This document shows positions 11,551 through 17,120 of a stretch of 64,000 nucleotides of DNA, piece by piece; the stretch's first letter is position 1, and each line of letters opens with the position of its first letter. Source of the DNA: Bacilli bacterium (lineage in GTDB: Bacteria; Bacillota_I; Bacilli_A; RFN20; CAG-288); assembly GCA_022652945.1 (NCBI GenBank), contig JALCRV010000008.1, forward strand, positions 1 through 64,000, in the 5' to 3' direction. Made by a program: the position numbers and the translations under genes. Below the pieces are notes generated by a model, which was not told the DNA's origin, made no database searches, and saw nothing but the letters and a program-made list of their open reading frames with translations.

Positions 11551-12609
11551 TTATTTAACGTAAGGGACGTAAGAAACAACCGCTTTTCCATCGATTTCCT
11601 CGACAGTTCTCTGGAAAGTATATTCTTTCTTCGCTCCGGTAGCTTTGGTTTTCTCTTCAACTTCGATCAGATTCAAGCCGTCTTTGACATAAGAATCGAT
11701 CTCGTATTCGTAATCAAGAGTCTCAAGTTCCGTTTCTTCTTCCTGGTCTTCGTCATCGTTCTCGAAGGAGACTTCATAATAAGTCTCTTCCAACCCTCCG
11801 CTAACTTTGCGGTAGCTGAATTCCAACTCTTTTTCATTCTCTTCCAACTCCAGGGAATTCTTGACTTCGACAAAGTTGGTTTCATCCTGCTTCAGTCTGA
11901 AGGTGACTTCCGTTTCGTTTTCTTCTTTGGAAGTCTTGGTTTCACTCAGCAGATCGAAGGTATATTGGACATCATCCACCAGACTGATACCTTCAATCTT
12001 AATCTCGGTCTCTTTTTCATCTTCCGAGACTTCATTTTCCTGCTTGGCGGAATTATAGAACAGAGAATAAAGAGAAGTCTTTCCATCGAGCAAGGTGTAG
12101 CTGATATCGGTTTGGTAAGCATAATCAGCATTGGTAGACTTCACTTCCGCAATCGAGAAATTAAGATCCTTCGCATTGAATAGATCTAAGGAATTAAGCA
12201 TCGAAACGATCTTATCTTCGTCCTGATGGTCAGTAGGATCTGTTTGAGAAGTCGAAGCGGAAGCATTGATTACTTCCGAAGAAATTGTCTCGGAAGGAGC
12301 GGTTTGGGAAGTCGCTTCTGAGGTCAGGGAGTCATTAGAGGTCTCCCCAGAAGTTGACTCCGAGGTGGTAGAAGATGACATTTCGAATTTCGGGAGCAGT
12401 CTTAAACCGACCTTATTATTTCCCATCAGAGGCAGGGAACTAGCTAAGTCGACCGCTAATAAGGAATTCATCGACTTATTATCGGTGGCGACAGTAGCAA
12501 ACTCCTTTTCGGTCACGACAGTCTTCAGACCGACCGAAGCGGGGGAGGAAGAGCAGCCGGCTAAGAGGAAGGCAATAGAGGCAGCGACGGTGACGATTCT
12601 TTTTTTCAT
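11551..12609 (-). CDS. lipoprotein of the ECF sigma operon
   Basis: A 352-residue exported lipoprotein: basic N-terminus, hydrophobic core and lipobox LLAGC around residue 19. A Ser/Thr-rich linker (residues ~80-125) leads to an acidic beta-rich domain rich in Glu (about 130-350). No enzyme motif is seen. It is the third gene of the sigma / anti-sigma operon and has its own copy of the operon promoter motif immediately upstream (12632-12665), so it is probably a main target of that sigma factor. Its tail resembles the extracellular part of the adjacent anti-sigma-like protein in composition (short YEYE/EYSYEY strands), suggesting related folds. Function unknown. Confidence 0.75.
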   Translation of the reverse strand: MKKRIVTVAASIAFLLAGCSSSPASVGLKTVVTEKEFATVATDNKSMNSLLAVDLASSLPLMGNNKVGLRLLPKFEMSSSTTSESTSGETSNDSLTSEATSQTAPSETISSEVINASASTSQTDPTDHQDEDKIVSMLNSLDLFNAKDLNFSIAEVKSTNADYAYQTDISYTLLDGKTSLYSLFYNSAKQENEVSEDEKETEIKIEGISLVDDVQYTFDLLSETKTSKEENETEVTFRLKQDETNFVEVKNSLELEENEKELEFSYRKVSGGLEETYYEVSFENDDEDQEEETELETLDYEYEIDSYVKDGLNLIEVEEKTKATGAKKEYTFQRTVEEIDGKAVVSYVPYVK

Positions 12610-12631: not shown

Positions 12632-12665
12632 ATAAAGCGAACAAGGAGAATGTTTTATTGGGATT
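12632..12665 (-). promoter_or_regulatory. ECF-sigma promoter motif, copy 1
   Basis: Read on the minus strand: AATCCCAATAAAA, 11 bases, then TTCGCTTTAT. The same two blocks with the same 11-base gap lie upstream of the sigma gene itself (14131-14164), while the intervening bases differ. It overlaps the stop codon of the upstream gene and lies ~25 bases before the lipoprotein start, with AAAGGAG between. I infer it is the promoter recognised by the sigma factor encoded at 13592-14116. Confidence 0.6.
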
Positions 12666-13602
12666 ATTTGTAAATTTTTATTTGGGTCGCTTCATCGGTG
12701 TAGATTTTCTTCCCATCTTTTCTTTCTAAACTCATCTTTCCTTCATAATCTCCGCTCTCATAATTGATCTCCCAAATCGAAGTGGAATAATCCACTTCGA
12801 AGGCATAAGAGAGCGAATCAGCGGTAAAGGTAAGCTCCACATTCTCGCTTTTCTCATAGCTGAAGACATAACTCTCTTCGCCGTTTTTAATCACCGTATA
12901 TTCATAAGAATATTCATCGACTTCCTTTTCTTCTTCAATCTTAATGTAATTCTTTTCATCGATCGAAGCGGTGTATTCGTATTCCGTTTCCACCCCTTCG
13001 ACTTTATTCTTGCCTTCAATCCGGTAACAGACCTTCTCATAAGTCACTTCGCCGTTAAAAGAGACATCCTTATCATCTTTCGTATAATTGAAATAATACT
13101 CGATGGTTTGGTTGCCTTTAATGGTGATAAGGTAATTATAATGTCCGTACTGTCCTTTATAATCCACATCCTTCGCTTCCGCATAAGATTCGATCTTCTG
13201 ATCAAGCTGAACCTGGACCAAACTATCCGCTTTCTCATAGACATCCACGATTCGGCTGAAAGAGGACTGATCCACGTTCTGCTGACGGATAAGGCCTTTA
13301 AAAGGAGAGCCGGCTTGGTTATCAAGTAAGCAGAGGGAAGAGACAACCGCATTAGAAAGCCGGCTCCCTTCTTTAACATCAATTAAAGTGGAAACCGTCG
13401 GAACTTTGCCCGGTTTATTCAGGTAATAAACGCTAAGAGGAATGGCGATAGCTAAAGACAAAGCGACAGGAGCTGAGACGTAAAAGAACTTTTTCCAATT
13501 GAAAGGAGCTTTTTTGACTTGTTGTCTATTTTGATATTCTTTTAAGATCTTTTCAGAAGTCAATTGGATCTGATGATCTTTGATTTCTTTGTTAGTAAGC
13601 AT
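12664..13602 (-). CDS. single-pass membrane protein, likely anti-sigma factor
   Basis: A 312-residue protein with a ~45-residue basic cytosolic N-terminus, one membrane helix at about residues 42-62 (FFYVSAPVALSLAIAIPLSV), and an outer domain of ~240 residues built of charged beta strands. Its start overlaps the end of the sigma gene by 11 bases, so translation is coupled. Position and topology are those of the anti-sigma partner of an ECF sigma factor, but no ZAS-type HxxxCxxC motif is present, so this role is inferred from context. The outer domain resembles that of the downstream lipoprotein. Confidence 0.7.
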   Translation of the reverse strand: MLTNKEIKDHQIQLTSEKILKEYQNRQQVKKAPFNWKKFFYVSAPVALSLAIAIPLSVYYLNKPGKVPTVSTLIDVKEGSRLSNAVVSSLCLLDNQAGSPFKGLIRQQNVDQSSFSRIVDVYEKADSLVQVQLDQKIESYAEAKDVDYKGQYGHYNYLITIKGNQTIEYYFNYTKDDKDVSFNGEVTYEKVCYRIEGKNKVEGVETEYEYTASIDEKNYIKIEEEKEVDEYSYEYTVIKNGEESYVFSYEKSENVELTFTADSLSYAFEVDYSTSIWEINYESGDYEGKMSLERKDGKKIYTDEATQIKIYK

Positions 13603-14116
13603 CTTCTTTAATCTCCTTTCGTAACTTCTTCATCGCTTCGTTATATTTCAATTGGATCGTCCCGAGCGGTTTAGATAGGTATTCTCCGATCTGCTTGAAA
13701 GTCAGATCGTCTTCGACATGGAGGAGGACGATTTCCGCTTCCTCCTTACTTAAATACTTTTTGATATCCTTCAATAGTTCACTGGTTTTTTCCTCTTCCT
13801 CGTAGAAATCGTAGGTTATTTCTTCGAGGCTTGTTTCGCGGTTTCTTTTCCTTAGGTAATCGATACTTAGGTGTTTGCCGGTGATTAAGAGATAACCGAC
13901 CGGGCTTTCATCGGGATGAAGATTAGATAGATGATCGAGGAAGTAAAGATATGTATCTTGGAGGATATCTTCACCGATAGAGAAATCATCGACGATTTTC
14001 ACGATGCTGAAATAGATGAACTTTTTTGTCAGTTCATAAAACTCATCGAAGCAGGAAAGGTCGCCTTCCTGCATCTTTTTCGTCAGATCGATCAGATGTT
14101 GCAGTTTCTCTTCCAC
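13592..14116 (-). CDS. ECF-family RNA polymerase sigma factor
   Basis: A 174-residue sigma-70 family protein. Region 2 is seen at about residues 20-90 (GEDILQDTYLYFL, then YLLITGKHLSIDYLRKRNR) and region 4 at 125-170 (AEIVLLHVEDDLTFKQIGEYLSKPLGTIQLKYNEA). It starts at GTG with AAGAAGG in front. It redirects RNA polymerase to promoters that respond to envelope or other stress. First gene of a three-gene operon with the membrane protein and lipoprotein. A promoter motif shared with the lipoprotein gene lies just upstream, implying autoregulation. Confidence 0.88.
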   Translation of the reverse strand: MEEKLQHLIDLTKKMQEGDLSCFDEFYELTKKFIYFSIVKIVDDFSIGEDILQDTYLYFLDHLSNLHPDESPVGYLLITGKHLSIDYLRKRNRETSLEEITYDFYEEEEKTSELLKDIKKYLSKEEAEIVLLHVEDDLTFKQIGEYLSKPLGTIQLKYNEAMKKLRKEIKEDAY

Positions 14117-14130
14117 GCTTACCTTCTTAA

Positions 14131-14164
14131 ATAAAGCGAAGAAGCAGTCCTTTTTATTGGGATT
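14131..14164 (-). promoter_or_regulatory. ECF-sigma promoter motif, copy 2
   Basis: Minus strand: AATCCCAATAAAA, 11 bases, TTCGCTTTAT, located 14 bases before the GTG of the sigma gene. Matches copy 1 at 12632-12665 in both blocks and in the gap, so the sigma factor probably drives its own operon. The leader would be very short. Confidence 0.6.
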
Positions 14165-14357
14165 GTTTTTTGCTTTATTTCTTTCATTTAATTATAGCGG
14201 AAAAAAGGCGCATCTGTCGATTATCATAAGGTGCTTATTCTCAATAAACAAAAAACGGTTATCAATTTATTAATTATTTTTTATCTGGAAGAACAATATT
14301 TCTAAAGACAATCAAAAAAGATGCAAATCAGAAGCGGCCTAGAATTCATTCTGTTTT

Positions 14358-17120
14358 CTATTTATGTGAAAGAAACTTAGCCAAGCTCTCTTGAAGTCTA
14401 GCGACATCGAGAGGCTTAGTGATATAACCGTTCATCCCCGCCGCCTTGCTATGTTCAACCGCTGCGGAAAAGGCATCAGCGGTCATAGCGATAATCGGGA
14501 TAGTCTTGGCATCTTTTCTACTTAGCGCTCTGAGATTGCGTGTCGCATCGTAGCCATTCATCACAGGCATCTGGATATCCATCAGGATCAGATTGAATTC
14601 TTGAGGCTTAGAGGAAATAAACACTTCCAGAGCCTTTTTACCGTTTTCAACTAAGACCACTTTCAAACCGAGAGTCTCAAGAATACGCCGGCAGATTTCG
14701 CGGTTAATCTCATTATCTTCCGCGACTAGAACGCAGCCGGAGAGCTTTTTATCCGGAGTGAAACCGATATTCGTCTGTTCTCCTTCTTTGGCATTGGTGG
14801 CTTCCTGAGCTATAAAAGACACGGTGATTTTCGTTCCTTTTCCCAGAGCGCTTTTCACTTCGATGTTCCCCTTGATCAAATCGATGATCTTTTTAACTAA
14901 AGAAAGACCTAGCCCGGTCCCGGAGCTACTCTTCTCACGGAGGGGATTATCTTCCTGAGTAAAAGGCTCGAACATAATCTTCTGGAATTTCTCGCTCATG
15001 CCGATGCCGTTATCTTCGACGGAGAACTCGCAATAGCATTTACCTTCTCCTTTCGGCTCAGCCTTCAAACTGACGTGGACCTTTCCGCCTTTAGGGGTGT
15101 ACTTGATTGCATTTGAGATTAGATTCATCGCCACCTGGTTAAAGCGGACCTGATCGATATAAACGACGGGGCAGTCAGGCTTATCATCCAAGGAAAAATC
15201 AATGCCTTTAGCTTGGCATAACGGAACGAACATATTCAAAAGGTTAGAAGCAAAATCGACGAAAAGGCAAGGGGTAAGATGCAATTCCAGTCTTCCGCTA
15301 TCGATCTTGGAGATATCCAAGACATCATTGATCAAAGAAAGCAGGAAGGCATTAGAAGTCTGAATCTTCTTCAGATCTTCCTTCAAGGCTTCCGGCTTAT
15401 CGATATCTTCAAAAGCAAAAACGGTAAGGTTGGCAATCGCCCCGATTGGGGTGCGGATATCATGGCTGATTCGCGCGACAAAATCCGATTTAGCGGAGTT
15501 AGCTTTCTCAGCTTCTAAGAGCGCCGATTGGACCAAGGCAAACTGTTTCTGTTCTTCCGCCCAAGCCTGGGTGATATCGGTCTGGACAATCAAGATCTCG
15601 TTCTTTTGCTGGTTAAAATAACGGAAAAGGACCTGTTTCTTTTTAATCGAGCCATCCTTCTCTCTGAAGTCATAAGTCAAAGAATAGGAGGAGTTATCTT
15701 TCAACTTTTCTTCAATCTTTTCTAAGGAGGATTCACGCTTTAATGCTTCTGCACCCTCTTTTGAGGCGCAGTAAGCAGTTAACCGCTCCACGCCTGTTGC
15801 GTAGGGTAGACTCTGTCCTGGAAGGAACCCTTCACAGTTCCAATTGCCGCTATGCATCGCGAAAGTCTTAGAAAGGCAATCCACATAACCGACGTAATCG
15901 CTGCTTTCCCCGGACATCAATCTCAAAATCTCTTCTCCGCGCTTCTCTCGATCGATATCTACCGCATAAGTGACAGCTTCCACATCTCCGGTGCGGGGAT
16001 TGCGGTGCATGATAAGCAGGCCTTTACGGTAACGGAGGAAGTCGCTATAACGAATCGTATATTCAAAAGACAGGGTAGTCTCTCCGGAACTGAAACGCTT
16101 TAAAAGACTTTCCCGGGTGAACTCTTTCTTAAACCAAGCCAAGGTTTTTGGATCAGCGATCAATTTGCTGAACTCCATAAAATAACCATCGACCGTGCCG
16201 GACTCTTTTTGCTTTAGGACAAAAGCCAATGGGCTTTTACCATCGAGGCAGAGATTCTTTGTTAAATTCAGGTGGAAAGAACCGAGACTATTAGGATAGG
16301 CTTTATCTAGGGTACGGAAGAAATCAAGATAACGCTGCTGTTGGATTTTAGATTCCGTGATATCTTGGGAACAGCAGTAAATAGTTAAAAGATTACCGTC
16401 TTTATCAAAAAGAGGAACGGAAGTGACTAGCCACCAATGGGTTTGACCATTGATGGTAGTGCTGTATTCTAGGCTGCGGGTAGGGCTCTCTTTACTAAAA
16501 GGCACGAAAAGCGCAGCGAAAGCCTTGCGGAATGGTTCATCTACCATTCCTAAAAGAGAAGAGGGGACGTTTAAGACAACAGGAGGAATACCGGCCGCTT
16601 CACAGATGGTTCTTGTGTAGGCGCTATCCATTTGGAAAGTTACTTTTTTGTTTGGTTGGTCGTATTCAAAGATAATTTGCTTTGATTGGTTAGCAATCAA
16701 GTCGTACATACGCTTATTTTTTTCAGCGGTAAGTTCGGCTTCTTTTTCAGAGGTGATATCGGTAAAAACAGCAAAAGCGAGGATGCTACCATCATCTTGC
16801 GGCATGGGGTTAGCGCTCACGTGATACCAGCGATAATCTTCACCTGTGCCCCCTTGAGAACGATAAACGATCTCACCGGGCTGCAGGTTAGCAAAAAGCG
16901 AATGGAAAAAGATAAGGGCCGAATGACGATCATCAGGATGAATCAGTCCTAAAAGCCCCTCGCCATCTAACGTGAAAAGATTCCTCACCGATGTATTTTG
17001 CAGGGAACGATAATAAGCGTTCCCATAAATAACATGGACACTCCCTTTTTTTGATTCATAGACAAGAATCGCGGCGGGGAGTTTATCAGCGATTTGCTCC
17101 AACGTTTCAATAGAATCCAT
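14358..17120 (-). CDS. hybrid sensor histidine kinase with PAS domains and receiver
   Basis: A 920-residue soluble sensor kinase with no membrane segment. PAS domains lie at ~1-130 and ~140-265, each followed by a PAC-like strand (FAVFTDIT, IYCCSQDIT); one or two more PAS-like segments cover ~270-520. HisKA holds the phospho-accepting His in FVARISHDIRTP (~545). The HATPase domain has an N-box NLISNAIKYTP, G1 DNGIGM and G2 GTGLGLSLVKKI. A C-terminal receiver (~798-915) has the acidic pair AEDN, phospho-acceptor Asp in LILMDIQMPVMNG and conserved Lys in ITKPLD. It therefore runs an internal His-to-Asp relay; the output partner is not encoded beside it. Signal unknown, probably cytosolic. Confidence 0.92.
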   Translation of the reverse strand: MDSIETLEQIADKLPAAILVYESKKGSVHVIYGNAYYRSLQNTSVRNLFTLDGEGLLGLIHPDDRHSALIFFHSLFANLQPGEIVYRSQGGTGEDYRWYHVSANPMPQDDGSILAFAVFTDITSEKEAELTAEKNKRMYDLIANQSKQIIFEYDQPNKKVTFQMDSAYTRTICEAAGIPPVVLNVPSSLLGMVDEPFRKAFAALFVPFSKESPTRSLEYSTTINGQTHWWLVTSVPLFDKDGNLLTIYCCSQDITESKIQQQRYLDFFRTLDKAYPNSLGSFHLNLTKNLCLDGKSPLAFVLKQKESGTVDGYFMEFSKLIADPKTLAWFKKEFTRESLLKRFSSGETTLSFEYTIRYSDFLRYRKGLLIMHRNPRTGDVEAVTYAVDIDREKRGEEILRLMSGESSDYVGYVDCLSKTFAMHSGNWNCEGFLPGQSLPYATGVERLTAYCASKEGAEALKRESSLEKIEEKLKDNSSYSLTYDFREKDGSIKKKQVLFRYFNQQKNEILIVQTDITQAWAEEQKQFALVQSALLEAEKANSAKSDFVARISHDIRTPIGAIANLTVFAFEDIDKPEALKEDLKKIQTSNAFLLSLINDVLDISKIDSGRLELHLTPCLFVDFASNLLNMFVPLCQAKGIDFSLDDKPDCPVVYIDQVRFNQVAMNLISNAIKYTPKGGKVHVSLKAEPKGEGKCYCEFSVEDNGIGMSEKFQKIMFEPFTQEDNPLREKSSSGTGLGLSLVKKIIDLIKGNIEVKSALGKGTKITVSFIAQEATNAKEGEQTNIGFTPDKKLSGCVLVAEDNEINREICRRILETLGLKVVLVENGKKALEVFISSKPQEFNLILMDIQMPVMNGYDATRNLRALSRKDAKTIPIIAMTADAFSAAVEHSKAAGMNGYITKPLDVARLQESLAKFLSHK

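Follow-up and report, generated by a model that had tools for sequence, protein, structure and literature searches.

The described systems closest to the locus analysed here include SigW, SigX and SigM of B. subtilis, ECF sigma factors with regions 2 and 4 that are accompanied by a downstream membrane anti-sigma factor and preceded by a promoter before their own gene, with the usual spacing between its two boxes; the −10 of SigW is of the CGTA type. In E. coli, the sigma factor RpoE, the membrane anti-sigma factor RseA and the extracytoplasmic protein RseB are encoded together. A further precedent is RpoE1-TolB of T. tengcongensis, in which a one-pass anti-sigma factor adjoins the ECF sigma factor and binds it through a short N-terminus, and which is autoregulated in vitro (PMC3397946).

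The locus in the window (the whole 64,000-nucleotide stretch of DNA that was analysed) resembles these systems in its general plan. On the minus strand, a SigA-type promoter and a first copy of a bipartite motif, read here as a promoter, precede the sigma and anti-sigma genes, and a second copy of the motif precedes a lipoprotein gene:

14191..14220, minus strand, probable SigA-type promoter TCGACA-N18-TATAAT (11/12 consensus matches)
14131..14164, minus strand, predicted ECF-type promoter 1, autoregulatory: −35 CCAATAAAA, N13, −10 CGCTTTAT; exact twin of promoter 2, with its core found before orthologous sigma genes
13592..14116, minus strand, ECF sigma factor of 174 aa with a GTG start and Shine-Dalgarno-like AAGAAGG (Pfam and NCBIfam matches)
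12664..13602, minus strand, putative anti-sigma factor of 312 aa (gene order kept in relatives, N-terminal motif, hydropathy)
12632..12665, minus strand, predicted ECF-type promoter 2, internal: −35 CCAATAAAA, N13, −10 CGCTTTAT; exact twin of promoter 1, with a second copy in about 30 relatives
11551..12609, minus strand, lipoprotein, 352 aa, lipobox LLAGC with Cys19 (invariant in 21 homologues)

The sigma factor has sigma regions 2 and 4 only (Sigma70_r2 at 30–93 and Sigma70_r4 at 122–167, both above the Pfam gathering cut-off), the feature that is kept as defining for ECF (group IV) sigma factors in the current classification (PMC8103513), and it scores above the cut-off of the NCBIfam sigma70-ECF model. 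None of the named NCBIfam ECF equivalogs (SigY, SigW, SigM, SigV and others) rose above its cut-off, the best being SigY with 56.9 bits versus 194, while among solved structures SigW is the best sequence match. The anti-sigma gene begins within the end of the sigma gene, an order that is kept in relatives, and its product is predicted to have a cytosolic N-terminus of ~40 aa, in which the family motif [TS]SxxILxxY occurs, a single membrane helix at ~40–60 (hydropathy) and then a beta-strand ectodomain; searches of Pfam and NCBIfam gave it no match and no known anti-sigma domain. Among ECF sigma factors in general, an adjacent, co-transcribed membrane anti-sigma factor and positive autoregulation are frequent without being required. 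SigA-type sites are not enriched across the region (7 found versus 5.6 expected), so the one upstream of the sigma gene is to be taken as a consensus match only. The upstream neighbour on the same strand (17120..14358) encodes a hybrid histidine kinase of 920 aa that contains PAS domains as well as a receiver domain; Pfam found no DNA-binding domain in it.

Set beside SigW, SigX and SigM, the locus differs in that its anti-sigma factor lacks a Pfam domain, a second predicted promoter stands before a lipoprotein gene and no regulon was found outside the operon. The −35 also departs from that of SigW, being CCAAT(AA) here rather than GAAAC-type (ATTGAAACCTTT; PMC8103513), as does the region 4.2 helix (GT[IV]xWxYNxA here, GTVKTRIHRG in SigW). 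Unlike the third protein of the RpoE-RseA-RseB set, the one here is a lipoprotein that would be transcribed from a sigma promoter of its own and, by the profile comparison given below, is a homologue of the anti-sigma ectodomain. RpoE1-TolB shares the pairing of an ECF sigma factor with an adjacent one-pass anti-sigma factor of short N-terminus, predicted here from sequence, but has a TolB-type ectodomain, two further downstream genes on the opposite strand and no second promoter described (PMC3397946).

A preliminary description had reported the bipartite motif as occurring twice with an identical gap and different filler, and both copies are exact: AATCCCAATAAAA-N11-TTCGCTTTAT lies on the minus strand at 14164..14131 before the sigma gene and at 12665..12632 before the lipoprotein gene, the 11-base fillers being unlike (AGGACTGCTTC and CATTCTCCTTG) and the flanks also different, where 100 dinucleotide shuffles of the window gave an expectation of 0. 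The genome scan that it had proposed returned these two sites, both in the same operon, as the sole matches in the 2.09 Mb assembly (pattern search, ≤3 mismatches over 23 fixed bases), with 0 matches for a reversed-pattern control. The first copy ends 14 nt ahead of the sigma GTG (14116), and with transcription predicted to start at ~14125, a leader of only ~9 nt would remain, in which the Shine-Dalgarno sequence is cut short. The second shares two bases with the anti-sigma gene, the final two of its stop codon, and stops 22 nt ahead of the lipoprotein ATG (12609), with a predicted start at ~12626 and a leader of ~17 nt that would keep AAAGGAG whole. The core that is kept in relatives is CCAATAA(A)(A)-N13-YGTATTAAT, whereas the AATC at the front and the precise TTCGCTTTAT are specific to the window locus, and two positions of the window −10 CGCTTTAT depart from CGTATTAAT, the family consensus.

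Relatives of the sigma factor were sought in the genus, family, order and class, and in named genomes, where a Mycoplasmatota bacterium gave the one match; the sigma group is present in 165 of 279 sampled genomes of the order and 189 of 395 sampled of the class. Conservation was assessed in 54 loci from the same class in which the sigma match was strong, a set that includes four near-identical relatives (L029–L031 and L034), so that the independent loci are fewer than those counted. The DNA upstream of the related sigma genes carries CCAATAA(AA), 13 bases and [CT]GTATTAAT or variants; CCAATAA(AA)-N13-YGTA stands before the sigma gene in ~45–48 of the 54 loci, and an element score of ≥9/11 was reached in 42 of them versus 1.1 expected from dinucleotide shuffles. 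Further loci have the element with N14 spacing (L046, L048, L049), closer to the start (L042) or ~130–165 nt ahead of the start codon (L058, L060, L063), and in a few relatives it is absent near the sigma gene. A second copy precedes the lipoprotein gene downstream of the anti-sigma gene in ~30 of the 54 loci (~1 per set in shuffles), the median distance to the start codon being 22 nt for the sigma copies and 37 nt for the lipoprotein copies. The preliminary description had made its reading depend on the presence of the motif before orthologous operons, and the motif is kept there before both the sigma and the lipoprotein genes.

The position of the element varies among these loci. In L030 and L039–L042, the ECF −10 lies just 10 nt ahead of an in-frame sigma ATG (CGTATTNATTATG-like); an autoregulated sigma mRNA would there be leaderless, or a later start codon would be used. 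A related group (L055, L057, L058, L060, L063, L068 and L070) shares a promoter-like CTTTACT... and a TATAAT-like box right before the sigma gene, and in this group the CCAAT element, where found, lies well over 100 bp upstream of that gene.

A comparison of 70 sites shows hardly any variation in the −35 bases C, C, A, A, T, A, A or in the G and T of the −10. The preliminary description had called the motif unlike the common AAC/CGT promoter of ECF sigma factors, which holds for the −35, where CCAAT replaces AAC (T at the deciding position in 97% of the 70 sites and C in 3%). It does not hold for the family −10, which is CGTA or TGTA ([CT]GTA, with G in 100% and T in 94% of sites; the window copies themselves read CGCT), nor for the spacing, which is usual. 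Since AAT takes the place of AAC at the normal distance to CG, we infer that the CCAAT-type promoter belongs with the standard ECF promoter as one of its variants rather than being unrelated to it.

The gene behind the second copy of the motif has its own relation to the anti-sigma factor. A direct BLASTP comparison of the anti-sigma factor and the lipoprotein gave no match, while hhalign of their profiles (21–24 homologues) gave a probability of 99% over 213 columns and a score of 136, versus 24 for reversed and ~9 for column-shuffled profiles; judged from these profiles, the lipoprotein and the ectodomain of the anti-sigma factor are homologues. Both are predicted to form a helix followed by ~15 antiparallel strands, and the AlphaFold2 model of the lipoprotein has 15 strands, mostly with pLDDT > 90. 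Foldseek found no significant or confident match of either model to any solved structure, RseB/LolA-like folds included in the case of the lipoprotein, and VIA-align returned outer-membrane barrels only (barrel-like sheets, Z ~8), from which no function is drawn because barrels at this Z may mean only a long beta-meander. Pfam searches with the lipoprotein and anti-sigma sets returned isolated weak matches and otherwise no family. Among relatives, RsgI_M (Pfam PF23750) occurs in the gene behind the second promoter (L095:1989-2936 and L096:1787-2827) and in the anti-sigma factor itself in the Mycoplasmatota relative (L011:5486-7981), so sensor domains occur in either role. This recalls SigI-RsgI, from which the system differs in that Pfam finds no RsgI_M in the window proteins and the sigma factor has ECF regions.

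These likenesses suggest that the lipoprotein may be induced together with the sensor and serve as its decoy or partner, sharing its signal or contacting the anti-sigma factor. A lipid-anchored copy of the sensor domain, acting as decoy or feedback form, is the role that we favour, tentatively and at somewhat less than even chances. About as likely, and itself not far short of even, is that the promoters are real and the lipoprotein is a plain effector, a ligand carrier or envelope protein whose likeness to the sensor reflects use of the same binding domain. As would suit an output, a second promoter is dedicated to the lipoprotein gene and to no other, and two proteins that are both predicted to be many-stranded sheets could bind the same ligand; the homology to the sensor ectodomain and the occurrence of RsgI_M in either role point to a sensory role as well, which is compatible with an effector.

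The reading of the twin motifs themselves as a pair of promoters recognised by the ECF sigma factor whose gene lies at 14116..13592 is very probably right, a confidence that covers the promoters and leaves the role of the lipoprotein aside. After near duplicates had been removed, the paired −10 9-mers agreed at 7.8 of 9 positions within a locus versus 5.6 of 9 between loci, a level reached in 0 of 20,000 permutations; part of this likeness reflects composition or shared ancestry, because the spacers also show an excess within loci (5.5 versus 4.2 of 13, permutation test). In the sigma alignment, residue 86 in region 2.4 (Asp86 in the window sigma factor) is the best tracker of the first −10 base, with Asp and C in 20 loci, Asn and T in 23, and neither Asp with T nor Asn with C in any (0 each); the A, G and Ser cases are few and fall apart from this pattern. 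On a sigma tree built without the residue-86 column, the residue changes ~8 times and the base ~7 times, and the best tree yields 7 independent Asp/Asn pairs, 2 of the 7 on well-supported branches, related loci not being independent samples. Because the first base of the −10 follows the sigma residue, the motif is tied to this sigma factor. SigW of B. subtilis has Asp at the aligned place, which fits its −10, and the altered region 4.2 helix of the family (GT[IV]xWxYNxA[MI]KK versus GTVKTRIHRGREAL in SigW; recognition helix KPLGTIQLKYNEAMKK in the window) fits the changed −35. The proposal that the motif is the recognition sequence of the sigma factor thus draws support from conservation, from −10 covariation within loci and from the tracking by residue 86.

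The same comparison bears on the view that a separate DNA-binding regulator of the sigma and lipoprotein genes uses the motifs as its operators, the sigma factor reading something else. A bipartite motif would suit such a regulator, and with a SigA-like promoter just upstream of the sigma gene it could be a downstream operator; but the element is asymmetric and always promoter-oriented, with a fixed N13 between −35-like and CGTA-like −10 boxes, its −10 base tracks the region 2.4 residue and no conserved regulator gene accompanies the operon, and we consider this very improbable. Still harder to credit is a recent duplication or a conserved RNA leader common to both genes, for although both copies lie near a start codon and spacers are slightly more alike within loci, the flanks and 11-base filler differ, only the −35 and −10 blocks are kept (spacer information is near zero across the 70 sites) and the predicted transcripts would start after the motif.

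Relaxed patterns gave 22 further sites in the genome at ≤3 mismatches versus 16 in the control. Apart from the twin sites and those of a paralogous system, the best relaxed matches, among those inspected, lie inside open reading frames, as does a GGAAATAT-type match on contig C1 that was considered as a further target. As there is no other convincing site in the genome, the regulon looks closed, and the sigma factor appears, on this pattern search, to control its own three-gene operon only. In 273 genomes of the order, the exact 15-base form CCAATAAAA-N13-CGTATT occurs 28 times versus 2 for the reversed control, by position nearly always at sigma or lipoprotein genes; one site, in G005, lies before a lipoprotein gene, and the sole site inside an unrelated gene is in G083.

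The genome also has two paralogous sigma/anti-sigma operons, L006 (G000:C4:155181) and L008 (G000:C2:214096), with the common −35 CCAATAAA and other −10s: TGTATATA precedes one sigma gene, and GGAAATAT and AGAAGATAG are the pair of the other operon. It is as if the paralogous systems were insulated by the −10. Elsewhere in the same genome (L009, minus strand near 1358), CCAATAATC-N13-TGTATATTA stands before a lipoprotein gene that is divergent from a more distant ECF sigma gene.

A mechanism may be proposed in which the upstream SigA-type promoter probably supplies basal sigma factor and membrane anti-sigma factor, and a surface signal would cause the anti-sigma factor to release the sigma factor. 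Bound to RNA polymerase, the sigma factor would recognise CCAATAA as −35 through the altered helix of region 4.2, and in region 2.4 residue 86 would read the first base of the YGTA-like −10, as Asp for C and as Asn for T. It would then transcribe its own operon from the predicted starts, in positive autoregulation, and the second promoter would yield extra lipoprotein, raised over the anti-sigma factor. By binding the same signal or the anti-sigma factor, the lipoprotein might tune or end the response. It is possible, though on balance doubtful, that the system represents a class-wide ECF family with CCAAT promoters, in which each sigma factor serves its own operon only, the lipoprotein is a detached copy of the sensor (a co-induced decoy or partner), the loop is self-limiting and paralogues are kept apart by the −10 that region 2.4 reads.

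Autoregulation itself is ordinary, about 55% of ECF sigma factors being predicted to be autoregulated (PMC8103513), and it is the class-wide dual-promoter system of CCAAT type that would be a new variant. Four features lie above routine: a dual promoter that is conserved, a regulon that appears closed, the correlation at residue 86 and a lipoprotein resembling the sensor. A literature search found no paper joining this motif to an ECF sigma factor, which is weak evidence as the main classification and promoter-code papers fell outside that search.

The analysis provides a predicted promoter, backed by covariation with the sigma factor, for a widespread sigma group whose member in the window matches no named curated sigma model. 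The CCAAT −35, paired with a changed recognition helix, and the correlation of Asp and Asn with C and T are directly testable and could yield orthogonal parts; if residue 86 reads the first base of the −10, D86N would shift preference from CG- to TG-type −10s (CGCTTTAT versus TGCTTTAT promoters). The pairing of an anti-sigma factor with a lipoprotein that would be induced alongside it, both from one ectodomain family, offers a hypothesis for how closed loops may sense and limit themselves.
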